A DNA stretch of 64,000 bases, from the NCBI GenBank assembly GCA_903831085.1, contig CAIKWE010000044.1, positions 1 through 64,000 of the forward strand. Reading direction: 5' to 3'. The DNA is from an uncultured Verrucomicrobiota bacterium (GTDB lineage Bacteria > Verrucomicrobiota > Kiritimatiellia > Kiritimatiellales > Tichowtungiaceae). A program made the position numbers and the translations under genes. Positions 13,962-61,265 of this stretch are shown here, piece by piece. Each line of letters begins with the position of its first letter. The stretch's first letter is position 1. The notes beneath the pieces are model-generated. The model worked only from the letters and a program-made list of their open reading frames with translations, was not told the DNA's origin and did not search any database.

Positions 13962-14891
13962 CTATTGCCAAATGCTGGTCTTCATTTCCGGCATAGGGTT
14001 GGCTTCAAACGGATTCGCACGGTTAATGGGTGACGATTTCTTGATCGTTTCCAGTGGAGTCAGCGGCACGAGGTCAGGCACATTCCGTCCGGATGGAAAA
14101 ACGGAAACGGGTTTGCCCGCCAGCGAACCGGGAGTCGGGTTAAGCAATGGACTTCGGGTCGACCGGAGAGGATCTTTGTCCAGCGCCGAAGAAATTCTCG
14201 CGGCCTCCGGAGAAAAAAGCGGCGGCGGGGCCAATGGTTCCTTTTTTGGCGTCAGGCGAATCGCCGCAAGGGGGTCGGGCGTTCCGTTCTTCGGGGTCAT
14301 GTAAGAGGGCGCGTCGGCATCCTTATCTTTATCTTTGCTGCCAAAGAGGTTCGGCGGAGCGAGTTGATATTGTTTCAGGCGGTCCAGTTCCGGAGAACCG
14401 CTCTGGGGTTGAGTTTTTTCGCGCAGAAGTTTTTCAGCCAGTTCGTTTTCTTTTTTCCTAGCTTCCTGCGATTTCAATTCCTTTTTCCGATCCATCTCCC
14501 GAACCAGCCAGGCGTCTTCCGTTTGGTTGGTTTGCGCCATAGCTGCGTCATCATCCAGTAAAGCCGGTGTCAGCCAGTTTTTATTTTTCTCGGGCTTCGG
14601 CACGGTGGCGGTCGGGTCAGGCATCACCGGCATGGTTGACGGAGAGGACTGACGGTCCATTTTTGCATCCATCTCTCGGAGTTTTCTGTCCAGCTCCTGC
14701 TCCTCTTCGGTCGGGGTACGCGGCACCTCCAGATTGTGATTCTCTAGCGGCACCTTTTCCGAATAAACCCGGTGCTGAGCCTTGGTTTTCTGCGCCGCAA
14801 GCGCGGCATCCAGATCCTCCGCTGCAACCGGAATACCGATCCAGATCAGGACGGACAGCGTCGCTAAACATTTGAAAATCAGGGACTTCAT
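13962..14891 (-). CDS. Exported low-complexity protein of unknown function
   Basis: The start chosen (14891) gives a classic signal peptide: MKSLIFKCL then a hydrophobic core ending PVAAED. The remaining 285 residues are rich in Lys, Glu, Pro and Asp, with charged coiled-coil-like stretches (EEEQELDRKLREMDAK and MDRKKELKSQEARKK). They contain no recognisable domain. The protein is probably periplasmic and largely disordered. The in-frame ATG at 14957 would put 22 extra residues before the signal peptide and is unlikely. Confidence 0.65.
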   Translation of the reverse strand: MKSLIFKCLATLSVLIWIGIPVAAEDLDAALAAQKTKAQHRVYSEKVPLENHNLEVPRTPTEEEQELDRKLREMDAKMDRQSSPSTMPVMPDPTATVPKPEKNKNWLTPALLDDDAAMAQTNQTEDAWLVREMDRKKELKSQEARKKENELAEKLLREKTQPQSGSPELDRLKQYQLAPPNLFGSKDKDKDADAPSYMTPKNGTPDPLAAIRLTPKKEPLAPPPLFSPEAARISSALDKDPLRSTRSPLLNPTPGSLAGKPVSVFPSGRNVPDLVPLTPLETIKKSSPINRANPFEANPMPEMKTSIWQ

Positions 14892-14986
14892 ATAATCCAG
14901 ATAGTACTCCTTTTTCGCTGTTCCGTCAACCGAACCCCGGTTACCGCCGGTTGCCATTTGTTCAACTTCCTGTTACCGTACTCCCC

Positions 14987-16390
14987 ATGCGTAACATCCT
15001 GAATGCCGCCGTGTTAACCGTTTGCTTTTTCGCGTTTTCCTCACAGGCCGCCGTGCTGGAATTCCGTCTCGACCAAAACCGCCTGTGGCTCACGACCAAG
15101 GAAGAGCCGCTTCCGCAGCTTCTTGAACGCTTCGCCGCCGCTGGCATCGATGTGCAGGTCGATCCCTCCGCGCAGAAAATGGTCACCGGCTCCTGCCGCG
15201 CCGCCGATGTGGAAGGCGTTCTCGACGAACTCCTTTCTCCGTATGACTACCTGCTTGACTGGCGGCGCGAAACCGGCCCGCTCGGCGAGCTTAACCGCCT
15301 CACCGGTATTCGTGTGTTCCGCAAAGGCCACGCCGAATCCGTACAGCCGTTACGTAATGTGCGCCGCATCGAAACCTCCTTTGACGGGAAATCCCGTTTC
15401 ATGGCCCGCGAAATCCTTGTCGGTTTCGGTGCGGGATCCTCCATCGAAAACCTGCGCGCCTTCCTCGCCCGCACCGGCGGAACCGTGATCGAGGCCAACC
15501 AGAAGCTGGGCATCTACCGGATTCTTCTGCCCGAAGGCACCAACGTTCTCGACCTCATCGCCCAGCTTGGCAATGACCCAGGCATCGCCGTCGCCGAACC
15601 TAATTATGTCTACGACACGCCCAAGCTTCTGCCCGCCGAAGGCGGGAAGTCAACTGTTCCGGCGCAGTGGAACGCGCCCTCCGGCGACAATCCGATTGCT
15701 GTGGCCGTTCTCGACACCGGTCTTGCGCCGGATGAAAACCTGAACCGCGCCGTTATCGGATCTTTTGATGCCACCCATCCCGGCACACAGCTCACCACCG
15801 ACTCTGTCGGCCACGGCACCCTCATGGCGCGGCTTGCCGCCGGCCTGGTTGATCCGTATGCGACCCCGATCGGAGAAGGTGTACCGGTCATTGCTGTGAA
15901 AGCCTTTGCTGATGACGGCTACGCCGACTCCTTCACCCTCATGAACGCCATGACGTACGCCGTGCAAAAAAGCTCCGGCCCGATCAGTCTCAGCTGGGGA
16001 TCTGAAATTTCCAGCAAATTCATCGAAGCCGCCGTGCAGTACGCCAATGCGCAGGGGCATCCCGTTTTTGCCGCCGTCGGCAACGCGAACACCGGCAAGC
16101 CGATGTACCCGGCCGCCTATCCCGGAGTCATTGGTGTCGCCGCTTCAAACGGGGACAAACTGGCCGACTATTCCAACCGCGGTGACTTTGTGGGTATCGT
16201 TGCGCCTGGCTCCGCAGGCGGCTCGCAAGGCACCTCTGTGGCCACCGCCTACGTTGCCCACGTCGCCGCGCTCTACATGAAGAATCATCCCGGCGCCACG
16301 GCGACCGAAACCGTCGCCGCACTCAAAAAAGCCGCCGGCTCGACCGGCTTCCTCACCGAATCCGTCGTCAAACAGCTCCTCGCCAAATAA
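14987..16390 (+). CDS. Secreted subtilisin-like serine protease (S8)
   Basis: This 467-residue protein has a signal peptide and an N-terminal propeptide region of about 200 residues ending in a VAEPNYVYD-type junction. The catalytic domain follows with a complete triad: Asp243 in AVLDTGLAP, His276 in GHGTLMA and Ser417 in GTSVATA. The oxyanion Asn is near 376 (AVGNANTG). The ATG at 14987 puts the signal peptide at the N-terminus; an upstream in-frame ATG at 14951 adds 12 residues without benefit. It ends near residue 467 with no sorting signal, so it is probably released or periplasmic. Confidence 0.88.
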   Translation: MRNILNAAVLTVCFFAFSSQAAVLEFRLDQNRLWLTTKEEPLPQLLERFAAAGIDVQVDPSAQKMVTGSCRAADVEGVLDELLSPYDYLLDWRRETGPLGELNRLTGIRVFRKGHAESVQPLRNVRRIETSFDGKSRFMAREILVGFGAGSSIENLRAFLARTGGTVIEANQKLGIYRILLPEGTNVLDLIAQLGNDPGIAVAEPNYVYDTPKLLPAEGGKSTVPAQWNAPSGDNPIAVAVLDTGLAPDENLNRAVIGSFDATHPGTQLTTDSVGHGTLMARLAAGLVDPYATPIGEGVPVIAVKAFADDGYADSFTLMNAMTYAVQKSSGPISLSWGSEISSKFIEAAVQYANAQGHPVFAAVGNANTGKPMYPAAYPGVIGVAASNGDKLADYSNRGDFVGIVAPGSAGGSQGTSVATAYVAHVAALYMKNHPGATATETVAALKKAAGSTGFLTESVVKQLLAK

Positions 16391-57941: not shown

Positions 57942-60900
57942 TTACTGCTTTTCGATGACCGCGGCCCCGAAGGTGAAGCCGCCGCCGAACGCGGTGAGTC
58001 CGACGAGCGCGTCTTTTTCCATTTGAGGCATCAGTTCGACCAGCGCGAACGGAATGGTGTTCGACGAGGTGTTGGCATACTTGCGGATATGGTTGAACAT
58101 CTTTTCCGGCGGGCAGTGGATGGTTTTACGGATTGCCTCGATGATCCGCTCGTTGGCCTGATGCGGCACGATCATGTCGAGCGCTTCCACGCCAATGCCG
58201 CGCATTTCGCAGGCTTCGGCCAGCATATCGATCATCTTGCGCACGGCCAGCTTGAAGACCGTAAGTCCTTCCATCTCGATGACCTTCCCGCTGCCCATGT
58301 GGGGGACGTAAAGCACCTTCTGGTCCACGCCGGCGGCGGAAAGAACGGGGCGGTTGACGAGCACGTTGACGTTGCCGCCGCGCGGTTCACAGGAGATCAG
58401 CGAAGCGGTCGCGGCGTCGCCGAAGAGCGCCAGCGTCTTCTGGTCTTCATGATTGATCATCGGCGAAAGCGTTTCGGCGGTGATGACGATGACCTTTTTC
58501 GTCGGATCGTCGCGCAGAATATCACAGGCGTTTTGCAGGGCGTACATGTAGCCGGAGCAGGCGGCGCTGATATCGTGCGCCTGCATCTGAACTTCGCCCT
58601 TGGGCGGGCTCAGTTCGTTGAGAACGCGGCAGGCGAGCGACGGCGTCATCGCCAGCGGTGTGCCGGTTGAGCAGACGATGGCATCGATGTCGGCCAGCGT
58701 CAGCTTTTCCATCTCAAGCAGATCGCGCACCGCTTTAACGGCCAGCGTTTCGACATTTTCGTCGCCGGTGATCCAGTAGCGGTTTTCGCAGCCGGTGCGC
58801 GAACGGATCGCTTCGGAATCCCACTCGCCATGTCCTTTCAGCAATTCCTCGTTGGTGATGTGGCGCGAGGCAAGTACGGTGGCGATCGAAGAAATCAAAA
58901 CAGGTTTTGTTTCGACGGTTGCGGTCTTTCCAACCCTCGGAACAGTGGCAGTCCGTTTTTCAAGGATTGGGGTGCCGGGATCGTCTTTGGTGACCGGCTT
59001 TTTAATCAGATCGGTTTCTGTGGTGACGATGCGCGCCAGCGGCGTGCCGACATCGACGGAATCGCCTTCGGCGAGAAAAAGTTCATCGACCGTGCCGCTG
59101 ACCGGTGATGAAATTTCCATCGTTGCTTTGTCAGCTTCGACGGAAGCGAGCAGTTCGCCCGCTTTAACGGCCTGTCCGGCTTTAACGTGCAGTTCGGTGA
59201 CTTTGACCGTTTTATCGGACGGGCTGGATCCGATCGCGTTGACGGTGACGGAGCCTTCCGCTTCTTCAACCGGCTTCTGCCACGTCAGCGAGTAGCCGAG
59301 CAGTTCGGCGGCTTTGCCGAGCACGGTGCGGAACGACGGTAGCACTTGGATCTGCGTTTCAAACAGATAAGGAATGTAGGTGTCGTGCCGCGTAACGCGC
59401 GCCATCTGCACCGGCACATTCGCTTTTTCGGCGACGGTGGCCAGCACTTCGCCGCCGAGTCCGCAGGTGTGGTTGTCTTCGTGGACGACCAGCAGTCTGC
59501 CGGTCTTCTGCGCGGAGGCGATGACGGCTTCCTGATCCCACGGAACGAGCGAACGCAGATCAATCACTTCAACCGATGCTCCGGCGGCTTGAAGCGCATC
59601 GGCGGTTTTTTCGCAGAGCGGCATCGTACTGCCCCAACTGACAATCGTCAGGTCGCGGCCCGGACGGGTGACGCGTGCTTTGCCGATCGGCACGAACTGT
59701 TTCGCCGCATCGGCGGCGGCGGTGACGGAACGGTCGTTGATCAGATTTTTCGGGAAGAGGAAAACGGTCGGACGTCCGGATTCAAAGGCGGCGTTGAGCA
59801 GTCCGGCGGCGTCCGGCGCGGTGGACGGCATAAAAACATCGAGGCCGGGAATATGCGCGAAGGTGGCATCGAACGTTTGCGCGTGGTACGGGCCGAGGCC
59901 TGGACGGTAAGCTCCGCAAATCGCCATCAGAATGACCGGACATTCCCACTGCCCGTTGGTACGCCAGTAGATCGCGCCGAGTTCGGCGGCGATCTGATTG
60001 AAAGCGGGCAGCATGAAGTCGGCAAACTGAATGCAGGCGACCGGTTTTTTACCAACCATCGCCTGACCGATGGCCGCGCCGACAATCGTGGATTCGCTGA
60101 GCGGCGCGTTGATGACCTGTCCGGGGAACGCGGTGCTCAGTCCGCGCGTCAGACCGAATACATCGCCCTTCGGGTCTTCGATGTCTTCGCCGTAAAGATA
60201 AACATTGGCGTCGGCGCCGAGGCGGGCGCGGAATACTTCGCGCATCGCTTCGAGCATCGTGAGCGCATCGCCTTCGGTGCGTTTTTCGCTTTTTGCGTCG
60301 GTGAGTTTCGCTGGCAGCGGTTTTTTGGCGCGGAGTTCGACTTTTGCATTCGGCGCTTTACGGGCGGCGGCGAAGGCCGCTTCGAGCTCCTGATTGACCT
60401 CGTGTTCGATCGCTTTGAGCTGCGCTTCGGGAATACCGGCGGCGATCAGCTGTTTGGCCAGAATCAGAATCGGATCGGAGTTTTCGCGCATGTCGCGGAT
60501 GTCATCCGCCGAGCGGTAGAGCGTATGGTCGTCGGCATTAGTGTGGCTGGTCAGCCGCTCGACATCGACGACGACGATCTGCGGGCCGCGGGTTTTCCGA
60601 ATCTTGGAAACCGCCTCGCCGAAAACGCGGTGCGTTTCGACGACGTCGGTACCGTCGGCGCGCAGAATCGGCAGGCCGTAAAATTCTTTGGCGTCGCCGT
60701 CCGGCAGGGAATAAAAGGTGCGGCCCTTAGACTTTGTGGAAAGAGCGTAGCGGTTGTTCTGGACGACGAAGAGAACGGGGAGTTGCGAGCGGACCGCTTC
60801 GGCGACTGCTTCGAAAAATTCGCCTTCCTGCGTGCCGCCATCGCCGATACCGCAGTAGACGATATCGTTGCCGTCCTTGATGGCTTGCGCCACACCGACG

Positions 60901-61265
60901 GCTTGCAACGTGTTAGTGCCGACGCCGGTCGGGGCTCCGAGCAGGTTTAGTTTCCGGTCGCAGGCGAAGCCGGGCATGTTGCGGCCTTCGGAAGGCGATC
61001 CTGTTTTTCCGAGCAGCTCGAGCAGTAAATCCTTCTGGGTCACGCCGCGGGCGAGCATCAGAGCCCGGTCGCGGTAGTGGCAGTGGAGCCAGTCCGTTGC
61101 CGTCAGATGGGGCGCCAGCGCCGCCATGACTTCATGGCCGGAAGAGGGGACGTAGAAAAAAGCCTCGCCGCGCTGGGCGGCATCTTCCTGAACGACGTCG
61201 GCTTTGCGCGACGCGAGCATGTGACGATAGAGGCCGGTAAAAAGTTTGGTATTGAGTTTATCCAT
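57942..61265 (-). CDS. E1alpha-E1beta-lipoyl-ketoacyl synthase III fusion enzyme
   Basis: The 1107-residue protein has four modules. Residues 1-310: branched-chain-type 2-oxoacid dehydrogenase E1 alpha, with the thiamine diphosphate motif GIGDGGTQEGEFF...NN (139-171) and SHTNADDHTLYRS (240-252). Residues 335-660: E1 beta, with LYGEDI, LSESTIVGAAIG and GPYHAQTFDA. Residues 680-747: lipoyl domain, with Lys713 in EADKATM. Residues 785-1107: ketoacyl-ACP synthase III, with Cys903 in ISAACSGY, His1035 in IVPHQANE and Asn1065 in ANTSSN. No E2 catalytic or E3-binding domain is present. The gene is alone and divergent to the beta-helix gene. It probably initiates fatty-acid chains; the substrate is inferred. 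Confidence 0.92.
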   Translation of the reverse strand: MDKLNTKLFTGLYRHMLASRKADVVQEDAAQRGEAFFYVPSSGHEVMAALAPHLTATDWLHCHYRDRALMLARGVTQKDLLLELLGKTGSPSEGRNMPGFACDRKLNLLGAPTGVGTNTLQAVGVAQAIKDGNDIVYCGIGDGGTQEGEFFEAVAEAVRSQLPVLFVVQNNRYALSTKSKGRTFYSLPDGDAKEFYGLPILRADGTDVVETHRVFGEAVSKIRKTRGPQIVVVDVERLTSHTNADDHTLYRSADDIRDMRENSDPILILAKQLIAAGIPEAQLKAIEHEVNQELEAAFAAARKAPNAKVELRAKKPLPAKLTDAKSEKRTEGDALTMLEAMREVFRARLGADANVYLYGEDIEDPKGDVFGLTRGLSTAFPGQVINAPLSESTIVGAAIGQAMVGKKPVACIQFADFMLPAFNQIAAELGAIYWRTNGQWECPVILMAICGAYRPGLGPYHAQTFDATFAHIPGLDVFMPSTAPDAAGLLNAAFESGRPTVFLFPKNLINDRSVTAAADAAKQFVPIGKARVTRPGRDLTIVSWGSTMPLCEKTADALQAAGASVEVIDLRSLVPWDQEAVIASAQKTGRLLVVHEDNHTCGLGGEVLATVAEKANVPVQMARVTRHDTYIPYLFETQIQVLPSFRTVLGKAAELLGYSLTWQKPVEEAEGSVTVNAIGSSPSDKTVKVTELHVKAGQAVKAGELLASVEADKATMEISSPVSGTVDELFLAEGDSVDVGTPLARIVTTETDLIKKPVTKDDPGTPILEKRTATVPRVGKTATVETKPVLISSIATVLASRHITNEELLKGHGEWDSEAIRSRTGCENRYWITGDENVETLAVKAVRDLLEMEKLTLADIDAIVCSTGTPLAMTPSLACRVLNELSPPKGEVQMQAHDISAACSGYMYALQNACDILRDDPTKKVIVITAETLSPMINHEDQKTLALFGDAATASLISCEPRGGNVNVLVNRPVLSAAGVDQKVLYVPHMGSGKVIEMEGLTVFKLAVRKMIDMLAEACEMRGIGVEALDMIVPHQANERIIEAIRKTIHCPPEKMFNHIRKYANTSSNTIPFALVELMPQMEKDALVGLTAFGGGFTFGAAVIEKQ
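60594..60610. repeat. TTCCAA palindrome near-copy in the fusion enzyme gene
   Basis: TTTCCGA-ATC-TTGGAAA, one mismatch, in the E1 alpha part. Confidence 0.65.

Follow-up and report, generated by a model that had tools for sequence, protein, structure and literature searches.

A gene on the minus strand of a 64,000-nucleotide stretch of DNA from an uncultured Verrucomicrobiota bacterium (Kiritimatiellales, Tichowtungiaceae; contig CAIKWE010000044.1, positions 1 to 64,000; hereafter the window) raises the question of whether an acyl group held on a lipoyl arm can be handed directly to a beta-ketoacyl-acyl carrier protein synthase III (KAS III), and so start a fatty acid without the intervention of an acyl-coenzyme A (acyl-CoA). 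The gene (57942-61265) is a single unbroken open reading frame with an ATG start, encoding 1107 residues in which the E1alpha and E1beta modules of a 2-oxoacid dehydrogenase are followed by a lipoyl domain and a KAS III. Textbook type II fatty acid synthesis is primed by acyl-CoA, or by an acyl group on acyl carrier protein (ACP). In the original prediction, made from the DNA letters, acyl-dihydrolipoyl was proposed to feed the KAS III, bypassing CoA, for the start of branched-chain fatty acids. The analysis described here supports this as the best reading of the sequences, and we put at roughly 0.6 the probability that the fusion acts as a self-contained, CoA-independent starter of iso fatty acids, with 2-oxoisovalerate as its substrate.

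Architecture and distribution of the fusion

As had been claimed, all four modules lie in one polypeptide, in which Pfam recognised six domains, each above its gathering cut-off and all encoded on the minus strand. E1_dh, the E1alpha module (PF00676, residues 13-309, 60339-61229, E 1.1e-47), has as its top phmmer match in the Protein Data Bank (PDB) 1um9 chain A, a 2-oxo acid dehydrogenase alpha subunit. It is followed by the pyrimidine-binding domain (Transket_pyr, PF02779, residues 335-509, 59739-60263) and the C-terminal domain (Transketolase_C, PF02780, residues 528-636, 59358-59684) of E1beta, by Biotin_lipoyl (PF00364, residues 686-746, 59028-59210, E 3.3e-18), and finally by ACP_syn_III (residues 898-960) and ACP_syn_III_C (residues 1020-1105). 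The KAS III domain as a whole (residues 789-1105, 57951-58901) scored 262.8 bits against NCBIfam PRK09352 (cut-off 249), and 225.8 bits against TIGR00747 fabH, under the cut-off of 292.1. The catalytic residues were found exactly as predicted, namely Lys713, the putative lipoyl acceptor, in the motif EADKATMEI (59127-59129), and Cys903 (58557-58559), His1035 (58161-58163) and Asn1065 (58071-58073), which correspond to C112, H244 and N274 of the E. coli enzyme. The thiamine diphosphate (ThDP) binding motif runs from G141-D-G to N171 (60753-60845), and the E1beta module has QFADF in place of the QFADY of 1um9, 1qs0 and 2bp7.

The chain thus combines the ThDP-dependent E1 (GDG..N) and the lipoyl domain with acceptor lysine of the 2-oxoacid dehydrogenases, lipoylation being predicted, with the Cys-His-Asn triad, ACP_syn_III domains and PRK09352 match of a KAS III. 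The E2 acyltransferase and the peripheral-subunit-binding domain are missing from this lipoyl-bearing chain, as neither PF00198 (E2 catalytic) nor PF02817 (E3-binding) was matched by Pfam at E<=0.1; Pfam likewise found no ACP (PF00550) in it. In Foldseek, the top two PDB matches of an AlphaFold2 model built on 26 homologues (mean pLDDT 81.7, pTM 0.65) were chain B of the branched-chain E1 1um9 and a structure of E. coli FabH.

K713, C903, H1035, N1065, G141, D142, G143 and N171 are invariant in all 38 aligned full-length homologues, and the possibility of a degenerate module, with a dead KAS III or lipoyl domain, was rejected on these grounds. Each of the 26 members of alignment A1 matched all six Pfam models, and PF00198 and PF02817 were not among the 15 families matched by these members (Pfam, E<=0.001).

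The domain and homologue survey suggested in the original prediction placed the architecture in Kiritimatiellia, in other Verrucomicrobiota and in Planctomycetota. By reading of match rows, 54 of 97 genomes, including that of the window, carry the fusion, 42 of them in one full-length frame and 12 with the gene split by contig ends or frame breaks; for three of the split cases (G005, G027 and G041) only the E1 part was seen at that locus. The remaining matches in this search were other E1s, with 29-41% identity. With those three cases counted in, the fusion is present in 41 of the 43 genomes of the order Kiritimatiellales (G000-G042), G033 and G035 being the only two in which it was not found. 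A phylum sample of 387 genomes yielded 64 matches to the family model at E<=1e-150, comprising 37 KAS fusions (35 matched along the full model, and G049 and G075 matched in pieces, their remaining pieces having turned up in the 97-genome search) and 27 sequences that cover the model only from its start to position 611-760. Among 392 genomes of Planctomycetota, 49 matched the model, five of them as KAS fusions (four complete, and G664 covering positions 7-963). The other 44 cover the E1 part only or reach position 773 at most.

The named carriers include records from Pirellulaceae, Planctomycetales, Phycisphaerae and Verrucomicrobiales, and one of them (L046) is the complete Planctomycetales chromosome CP043547.1. 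An assembly artefact or chance read-through was therefore rejected, the fusion being full length in many genomes and in a finished chromosome. Partial fusion matches were also seen on contigs of metagenome-assembled genomes labelled Thiotrichales (L057), Akkermansia muciniphila (L059) and Haloferula (L062), which are perhaps misbinned or transferred.

KAS III in the place of E2

The E1-only matches offered a comparison with related chains, and seven of the 27 from the phylum sample (L104-L110) and seven of the 44 from Planctomycetota (L113-L117, L120 and L121) were fetched. Nine of these (L104-L110, L113 and L114) were given to Pfam, and 9/9 proved to be single-chain E1alpha-E1beta-lipoyl-E2 proteins with a C-terminal PF00198. 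Thus, as predicted, E2 and the E3-binding domain are absent from the fusion and KAS III occupies the place of E2, whereas in the related chains transfer from lipoyl to E2 is possible. The domain order is otherwise the same, and their E1 is about 37-42% identical to that of the window. Two further chains (L115 and L116) have a C-terminal E2-like DHRPFNG motif, identified by eye, and L120 is a separate E1 adjoined by a lipoyl-bearing frame of 418 residues; L117, with its C-terminal part out of frame, and L121, with no match, were left out of this comparison. The nine E2-type frames, of about 1010-1175 residues, each combine the complete E1 and E2 of a dehydrogenase in a single chain and occur in both Verrucomicrobiota and Planctomycetota.

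The 41 KAS fusions cluster together (SH-like 0.962) in an E1 tree with 57 rows, in which the E2 type forms one group in Planctomycetota (1.0, 4 rows) and another in Verrucomicrobiota (0.998, 7 rows). A smaller tree of 49 rows, with E2-type chains from Verrucomicrobiota only, likewise grouped its 38 KAS fusions (0.984). The split joining all E2-type and separate chains, on the root side of the larger tree, reached only 0.328, and because the deeper order is so weakly supported no claim is made that the E2 type came first. In one genome (G764, contig C14) a KAS III fusion coexists with a related E1 alpha/beta, encoded about 112 kb from it in a 682-residue frame; the two types are therefore not mutually exclusive.

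The CoA site of the KAS III domain was compared with that of standalone KAS III proteins. These were taken from the 30 best-scoring PF08541 loci, of which 26 were used and four (L079, L093, L094 and L103) dropped for want of a FabH-like frame. The set leans towards true FabH, includes a gene of the window genome itself (L078, contig C60), and draws four members (L074, L076, L082 and L092) from genomes in which no fusion was seen. As described for FabH in the relevant part of PMC4606726, the adenine of CoA is sandwiched by Trp32 and Arg151, with Thr28 hydrogen-bonded to it, and Arg36, together with the asparagines at 209 and 246, holds the pantetheine. Each of the three adenine contacts was found in 26/26 standalone proteins and in 0/38 fusions, the window chain having Trp815 at the position of Thr28 (58821-58823), Ala819 at that of Trp32 (58809-58811) and Gln942 at that of Arg151 (58440-58442). 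This loss holds separately in the 20 Kiritimatiellia and the 18 other fusions, in which the replacement residues mostly differ, and three further fusions read by motif (L111, L118 and L119) have neither Trp nor Arg at the contact positions.

In contrast, Arg36 is retained in 34 of the 38 fusions, and every fusion keeps the Cys-His-Asn triad along with Asn247 and Arg249. The two asparagines presumably correspond to 210 and 247 in E. coli FabH numbering, and we take Arg249 to be a residue of the ACP side; Asn210 is kept neither in the fusions nor in the standalone proteins. Judged by these residues, the fusion KAS III has lost the holders of the nucleotide end of CoA and kept most of what malonyl-ACP should need. 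The loop aligned to residues 190-207 of E. coli FabH, a segment which presumably lies near the tunnel mouth, also differs, with 11-16 residues in the fusions against 25 in 26/26 standalone proteins and 18 in E. coli. Finally, the acyl-pocket gate Phe87 (Thr874 in the window, 58644-58646) is Thr in 35, Ser in two and Ile in one of the fusions, as against Phe in 24, Leu in one and Gln in one of the standalone proteins. In the account of the FabH gate given in part of PMC3734052, a bulky residue accompanies acetyl-CoA, and a small residue accompanies longer or larger acyl groups. The domain thus shares with FabH its fold, the triad, Asn247, Arg249 and, in most cases, Arg36, but lies outside the narrow FabH class defined by the TIGR00747 cut-off and by Thr28, Trp32 and Arg151, and it stands behind a lipoyl domain.

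Proposed mechanism, substrate and alternatives

In the mechanism that we favour, E1alpha/E1beta would use ThDP to decarboxylate a branched 2-oxoacid, of which 2-oxoisovalerate is the likeliest, and the resulting isobutyryl group would be loaded onto the lipoyl group of Lys713. This arm would then swing to the KAS III, where Cys903 would accept the acyl group directly from dihydrolipoamide, a step accomplished elsewhere by E2, CoA and FabH together. Malonyl-ACP would enter the same tunnel, and condensation would give 4-methyl-3-oxopentanoyl-ACP, which the ordinary type II fatty acid synthase (FAS II) would extend to i-C12, i-C14, i-C16 and i-C18 chains. The dihydrolipoyl group would be reoxidised by the cell's separate, shared dihydrolipoyl dehydrogenase (E3). 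Direct transfer is favoured because it would explain together the KAS III in the place of E2, the loss at the CoA site, the retained ACP-side residues and the wider gate.

The genome of the window (2.14 Mb, 94.6% complete) holds the genes that such a pathway would draw upon. LipA was found above its cut-off, and there is one E3 gene, the separate dihydrolipoyl dehydrogenase which the original prediction had deemed necessary. A plsX-fabH-fabD-fabG ... fabF-like run, named by eye from gene order and sequence start, includes a FabH (L002) that retains Trp32 and Arg151. With this ordinary FabH present, the fusion would be a second starter; FabH would start straight chains in parallel, C18:0 thus coming from FabH and the iso chains from the fusion.

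Even-numbered iso chains require an isobutyryl starter, that is, 2-oxoisovalerate. The fatty acid data in PMC10880615 and PMC7356697 give C18:0 with i-C12:0 and i-C14:0, i-C16:0 or i-C18:0 as the major acids of Pontiella agarivorans, P. desulfatans, P. sulfatireligans and Tichowtungia aerotolerans, and i-C14:0 and C18:0 as those of Kiritimatiella glycovorans. Pontiella reportedly does not require yeast extract, and its isobutyryl starter is therefore probably made internally. The fusion is present in four candidate genomes of Pontiella/Tichowtungia strains (G010, G014, G024 and G025), an assignment which is tentative.

The E1 modules also lean, weakly, towards branched-chain enzymes. For E1beta the bit scores were 210 for 1um9, 198 for 2bp7 and 1qs0, 187 for 1ik6, 182 for 3duf, 173 for the human branched-chain and 134 for the human pyruvate enzyme, and the top three structures are all titled branched-chain enzymes; for E1alpha they were 142 for 1um9, 101 for human pyruvate, 97 for 1qs0 and 92 for human branched-chain. 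On the question of substrate, these scores count for less than the widened gate and the fatty acids found in the relatives.

Several observations weigh against the CoA-independent iso starter, and are considered here with the alternatives that they bear upon. The fatty acid data come from relatives only tentatively tied to genomes, and the Planctomycetota carriers fall outside them. Among 45 genomes, including that of the window, PF02852 (E3-type, a family that also takes in other disulfide reductases) was matched in 42, with no match in G012, G037 and G040, drafts of 73-86% completeness which all have fusion sequence; LipA was over its cut-off in 40. Furthermore, no KAS III besides the fusion was found in G012, G013 and G042, drafts of 59-84% completeness. 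Absences of E2, E3 and KAS III in draft genomes are only suggestive.

The alternative that survives best, though we regard it as improbable, is that the same lipoyl-to-KAS III chemistry acts on pyruvate (or 2-oxobutyrate) and provides an acetyl-CoA-sparing starter of straight chains. Among curated E1 models, the nearest carry the name pyruvate dehydrogenase, all of them below cut-off, and the PDB ranking is mixed for both subunits, with the human pyruvate enzyme second to 1um9 for E1alpha, and with 1ik6 and 3duf, both named pyruvate dehydrogenase, ahead of the human branched-chain E1beta. Planctomycetota also carry the fusion, and straight chains predominate in many members of that phylum. A pyruvate-derived starter, however, sits poorly with the change of the gate from Phe87 to Thr in 35/38, with the branched-chain titles of the best three E1beta structures, with even iso acids as major components of the cultured relatives, and with a window genome that already has an ordinary FabH for acetyl-CoA.

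It is also unlikely that the E1 and lipoyl modules cooperate with a separate E2 to form isobutyryl-CoA, which the KAS III would use as FabH does, so that the fusion merely co-locates enzymes. A PF00198 E2 is encoded by the window genome and by 40 of the 45 genomes, which makes a CoA route possible, and with two E2 matches each in G010, G024 and G025 and one in G014 the classical route is possible in the candidate genomes of the cultured strains too; the genomes of the named carriers L046, L036, L049 and L052 have 1 to 3 E2 matches each. Nor is the loss of the adenine contacts decisive by itself. Of 120 columns fixed in the standalone KAS III proteins, 35 are lost in the fusions, so that all three contacts would be lost by chance with p about 0.023. 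Furthermore, one of the window genome's KAS III proteins that is not fused (L005, C60:60437) has Lys at both 32 and 151, which means that loss of Trp and Arg also happens in unfused KAS III. Against such a CoA-linked route stand the loss of the contacts in 38/38 fusions, the absence of an E3- or E1-binding domain from the chain, and the lack of an E2 match in five of the 45 genomes, three of which have a full-length fusion (G007, G013 and G026, drafts of 87%, 84% and 94% completeness).

The position of the E2 gene in the window genome bears on the same question. The original prediction had named a required E2 elsewhere as one of the findings that would tell against it; an E2 gene does exist, but this single E2 adjoins its own E3 and an 817-residue E1 alpha/beta in what looks, from its gene content, like a catabolic 2-oxoacid dehydrogenase operon of sugar type. 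The run (contig C49, L067:2818-11040) consists of a DeoR-like regulator (by eye), E2, E3, the E1, a 405-residue protein, for which no NCBIfam match was found at 1e-20, and a short-chain dehydrogenase/reductase whose nearest model is sorbitol-6-phosphate dehydrogenase, under its cut-off. A separate 2-oxoisovalerate or indolepyruvate ferredoxin oxidoreductase (VOR/IOR) was also considered as a source of isobutyryl-CoA and is unsupported, as the lone PF01558 match of the window genome is on a 1172-residue chain that by its size and start, named by eye, resembles pyruvate:ferredoxin oxidoreductase (PFOR).

The weakest alternative, that the KAS III acts as a lipoyl-to-ACP acyltransferase or with another acceptor and yields isobutyryl-ACP or a special metabolite and not a membrane starter, has parallels in Streptomyces E1 relatives that precede polyketide synthase/nonribosomal peptide synthetase (PKS/NRPS) genes with lipoyl-E2-ACP-ketosynthase (KS) order and in the Qnc/Scl systems, proposed in the part of PMC6335953 concerned to place a glycolyl unit on a carrier, but is very doubtful in view of the Cys-His-Asn triad and Arg249 kept in 38/38 and of neighbourhoods in which, unlike in a biosynthetic cluster, no gene family occurs in more than 6/27.

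Relation to known systems and genomic surroundings

The branched-chain 2-oxoacid dehydrogenase complex (1um9, 1qs0 and 1dtw) has the same E1alpha/E1beta folds, ThDP motif and lipoyl domain. In the fusion, however, alpha and beta lie in one chain without E2 or E3-binding domain, and the product would go to the KAS III and not to CoA. A ThDP-dependent E1 and a lipoyl domain that feed a biosynthetic line instead of metabolism are likewise found in the C2-loading systems QncN/QncL/QncM, SclQ1-4 and NapB/NapD and in the branched-chain 2-oxoacid dehydrogenase (BCDH) loading of virginiamycin M. According to PMC6335953, the Qnc/Scl systems include both an ACP and an acyltransferase domain of E2 type, and the virginiamycin M pathway figure of PMC10006238 includes a BCDH unit. 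The fusion has in common with QncL/NapB-type loading only the E1-lipoyl part, since its chain holds neither an E2-type acyltransferase nor an ACP and its lipoyl domain directly precedes the KAS III.

Every module of the fusion is known, and lipoyl-fed loading of a carrier is known or, for Qnc/Scl in the portion of PMC6335953 cited above, proposed. No description of the fusion architecture, or of a direct lipoyl-to-KAS III starter of fatty acids, was found in searches aimed at it in an open-licence library, most subscription journals being outside its scope, and there is a fair chance that fatty acid synthesis is started here in a new way. We give slightly better than even odds to the full claim, in which decarboxylation of a branched 2-oxoacid, transfer to lipoyl and transfer to the ketosynthase Cys take place in one chain, without acyl-CoA or E2 and with KAS III in the place of the latter, as the main source of even iso acids in the Kiritimatiellia carriers.

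If this is correct, dihydrolipoamide would join acyl-CoA and acyl-ACP as a third type of primer donor, and whether iso or straight chains are made would be set by the acting starter enzyme and not by the acyl-CoA pool, which would help to explain even iso acids as major components in Pontiella and Tichowtungia. The gene would also serve as a single-gene marker of the iso trait in uncultured lineages and as a one-gene part for iso fatty acid production, and the E2-type chains and the fusions would form a natural E2-versus-KAS comparison for the choice of partner by swinging-arm domains.

The genes around the fusion (those of at least 100 residues within about 6 kb) were compared between the window and 26 named loci, 27 neighbourhoods in all, and no neighbour conserved across phyla was found. 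The most widespread family, which we take to be YgiQ-like radical SAM, occurs in six of the 27, that is, in five close relatives and the window, and an operon partner was accordingly rejected as a clue to function. Elsewhere in the window genome, two more KAS III genes (L069:5471-6466 and 14036-15019, contig C60) lie in a region that by eye resembles one for polysaccharide biosynthesis, and the first of them has Lys at both 32 and 151.

In Streptomyces, three of three E1 relatives directly precede a megasynthase beginning lipoyl-E2-ACP-KS, an arrangement that is, by analogy, a precedent for a lipoyl-fed assembly line. These megasynthases lie on plasmids (L071:9963-, L072:9955- and L073:9920-), behind the E1 alpha/beta gene, and two of the three clusters also hold ornithine cyclodeaminase, pabB and a gene of the chorismate mutase family.

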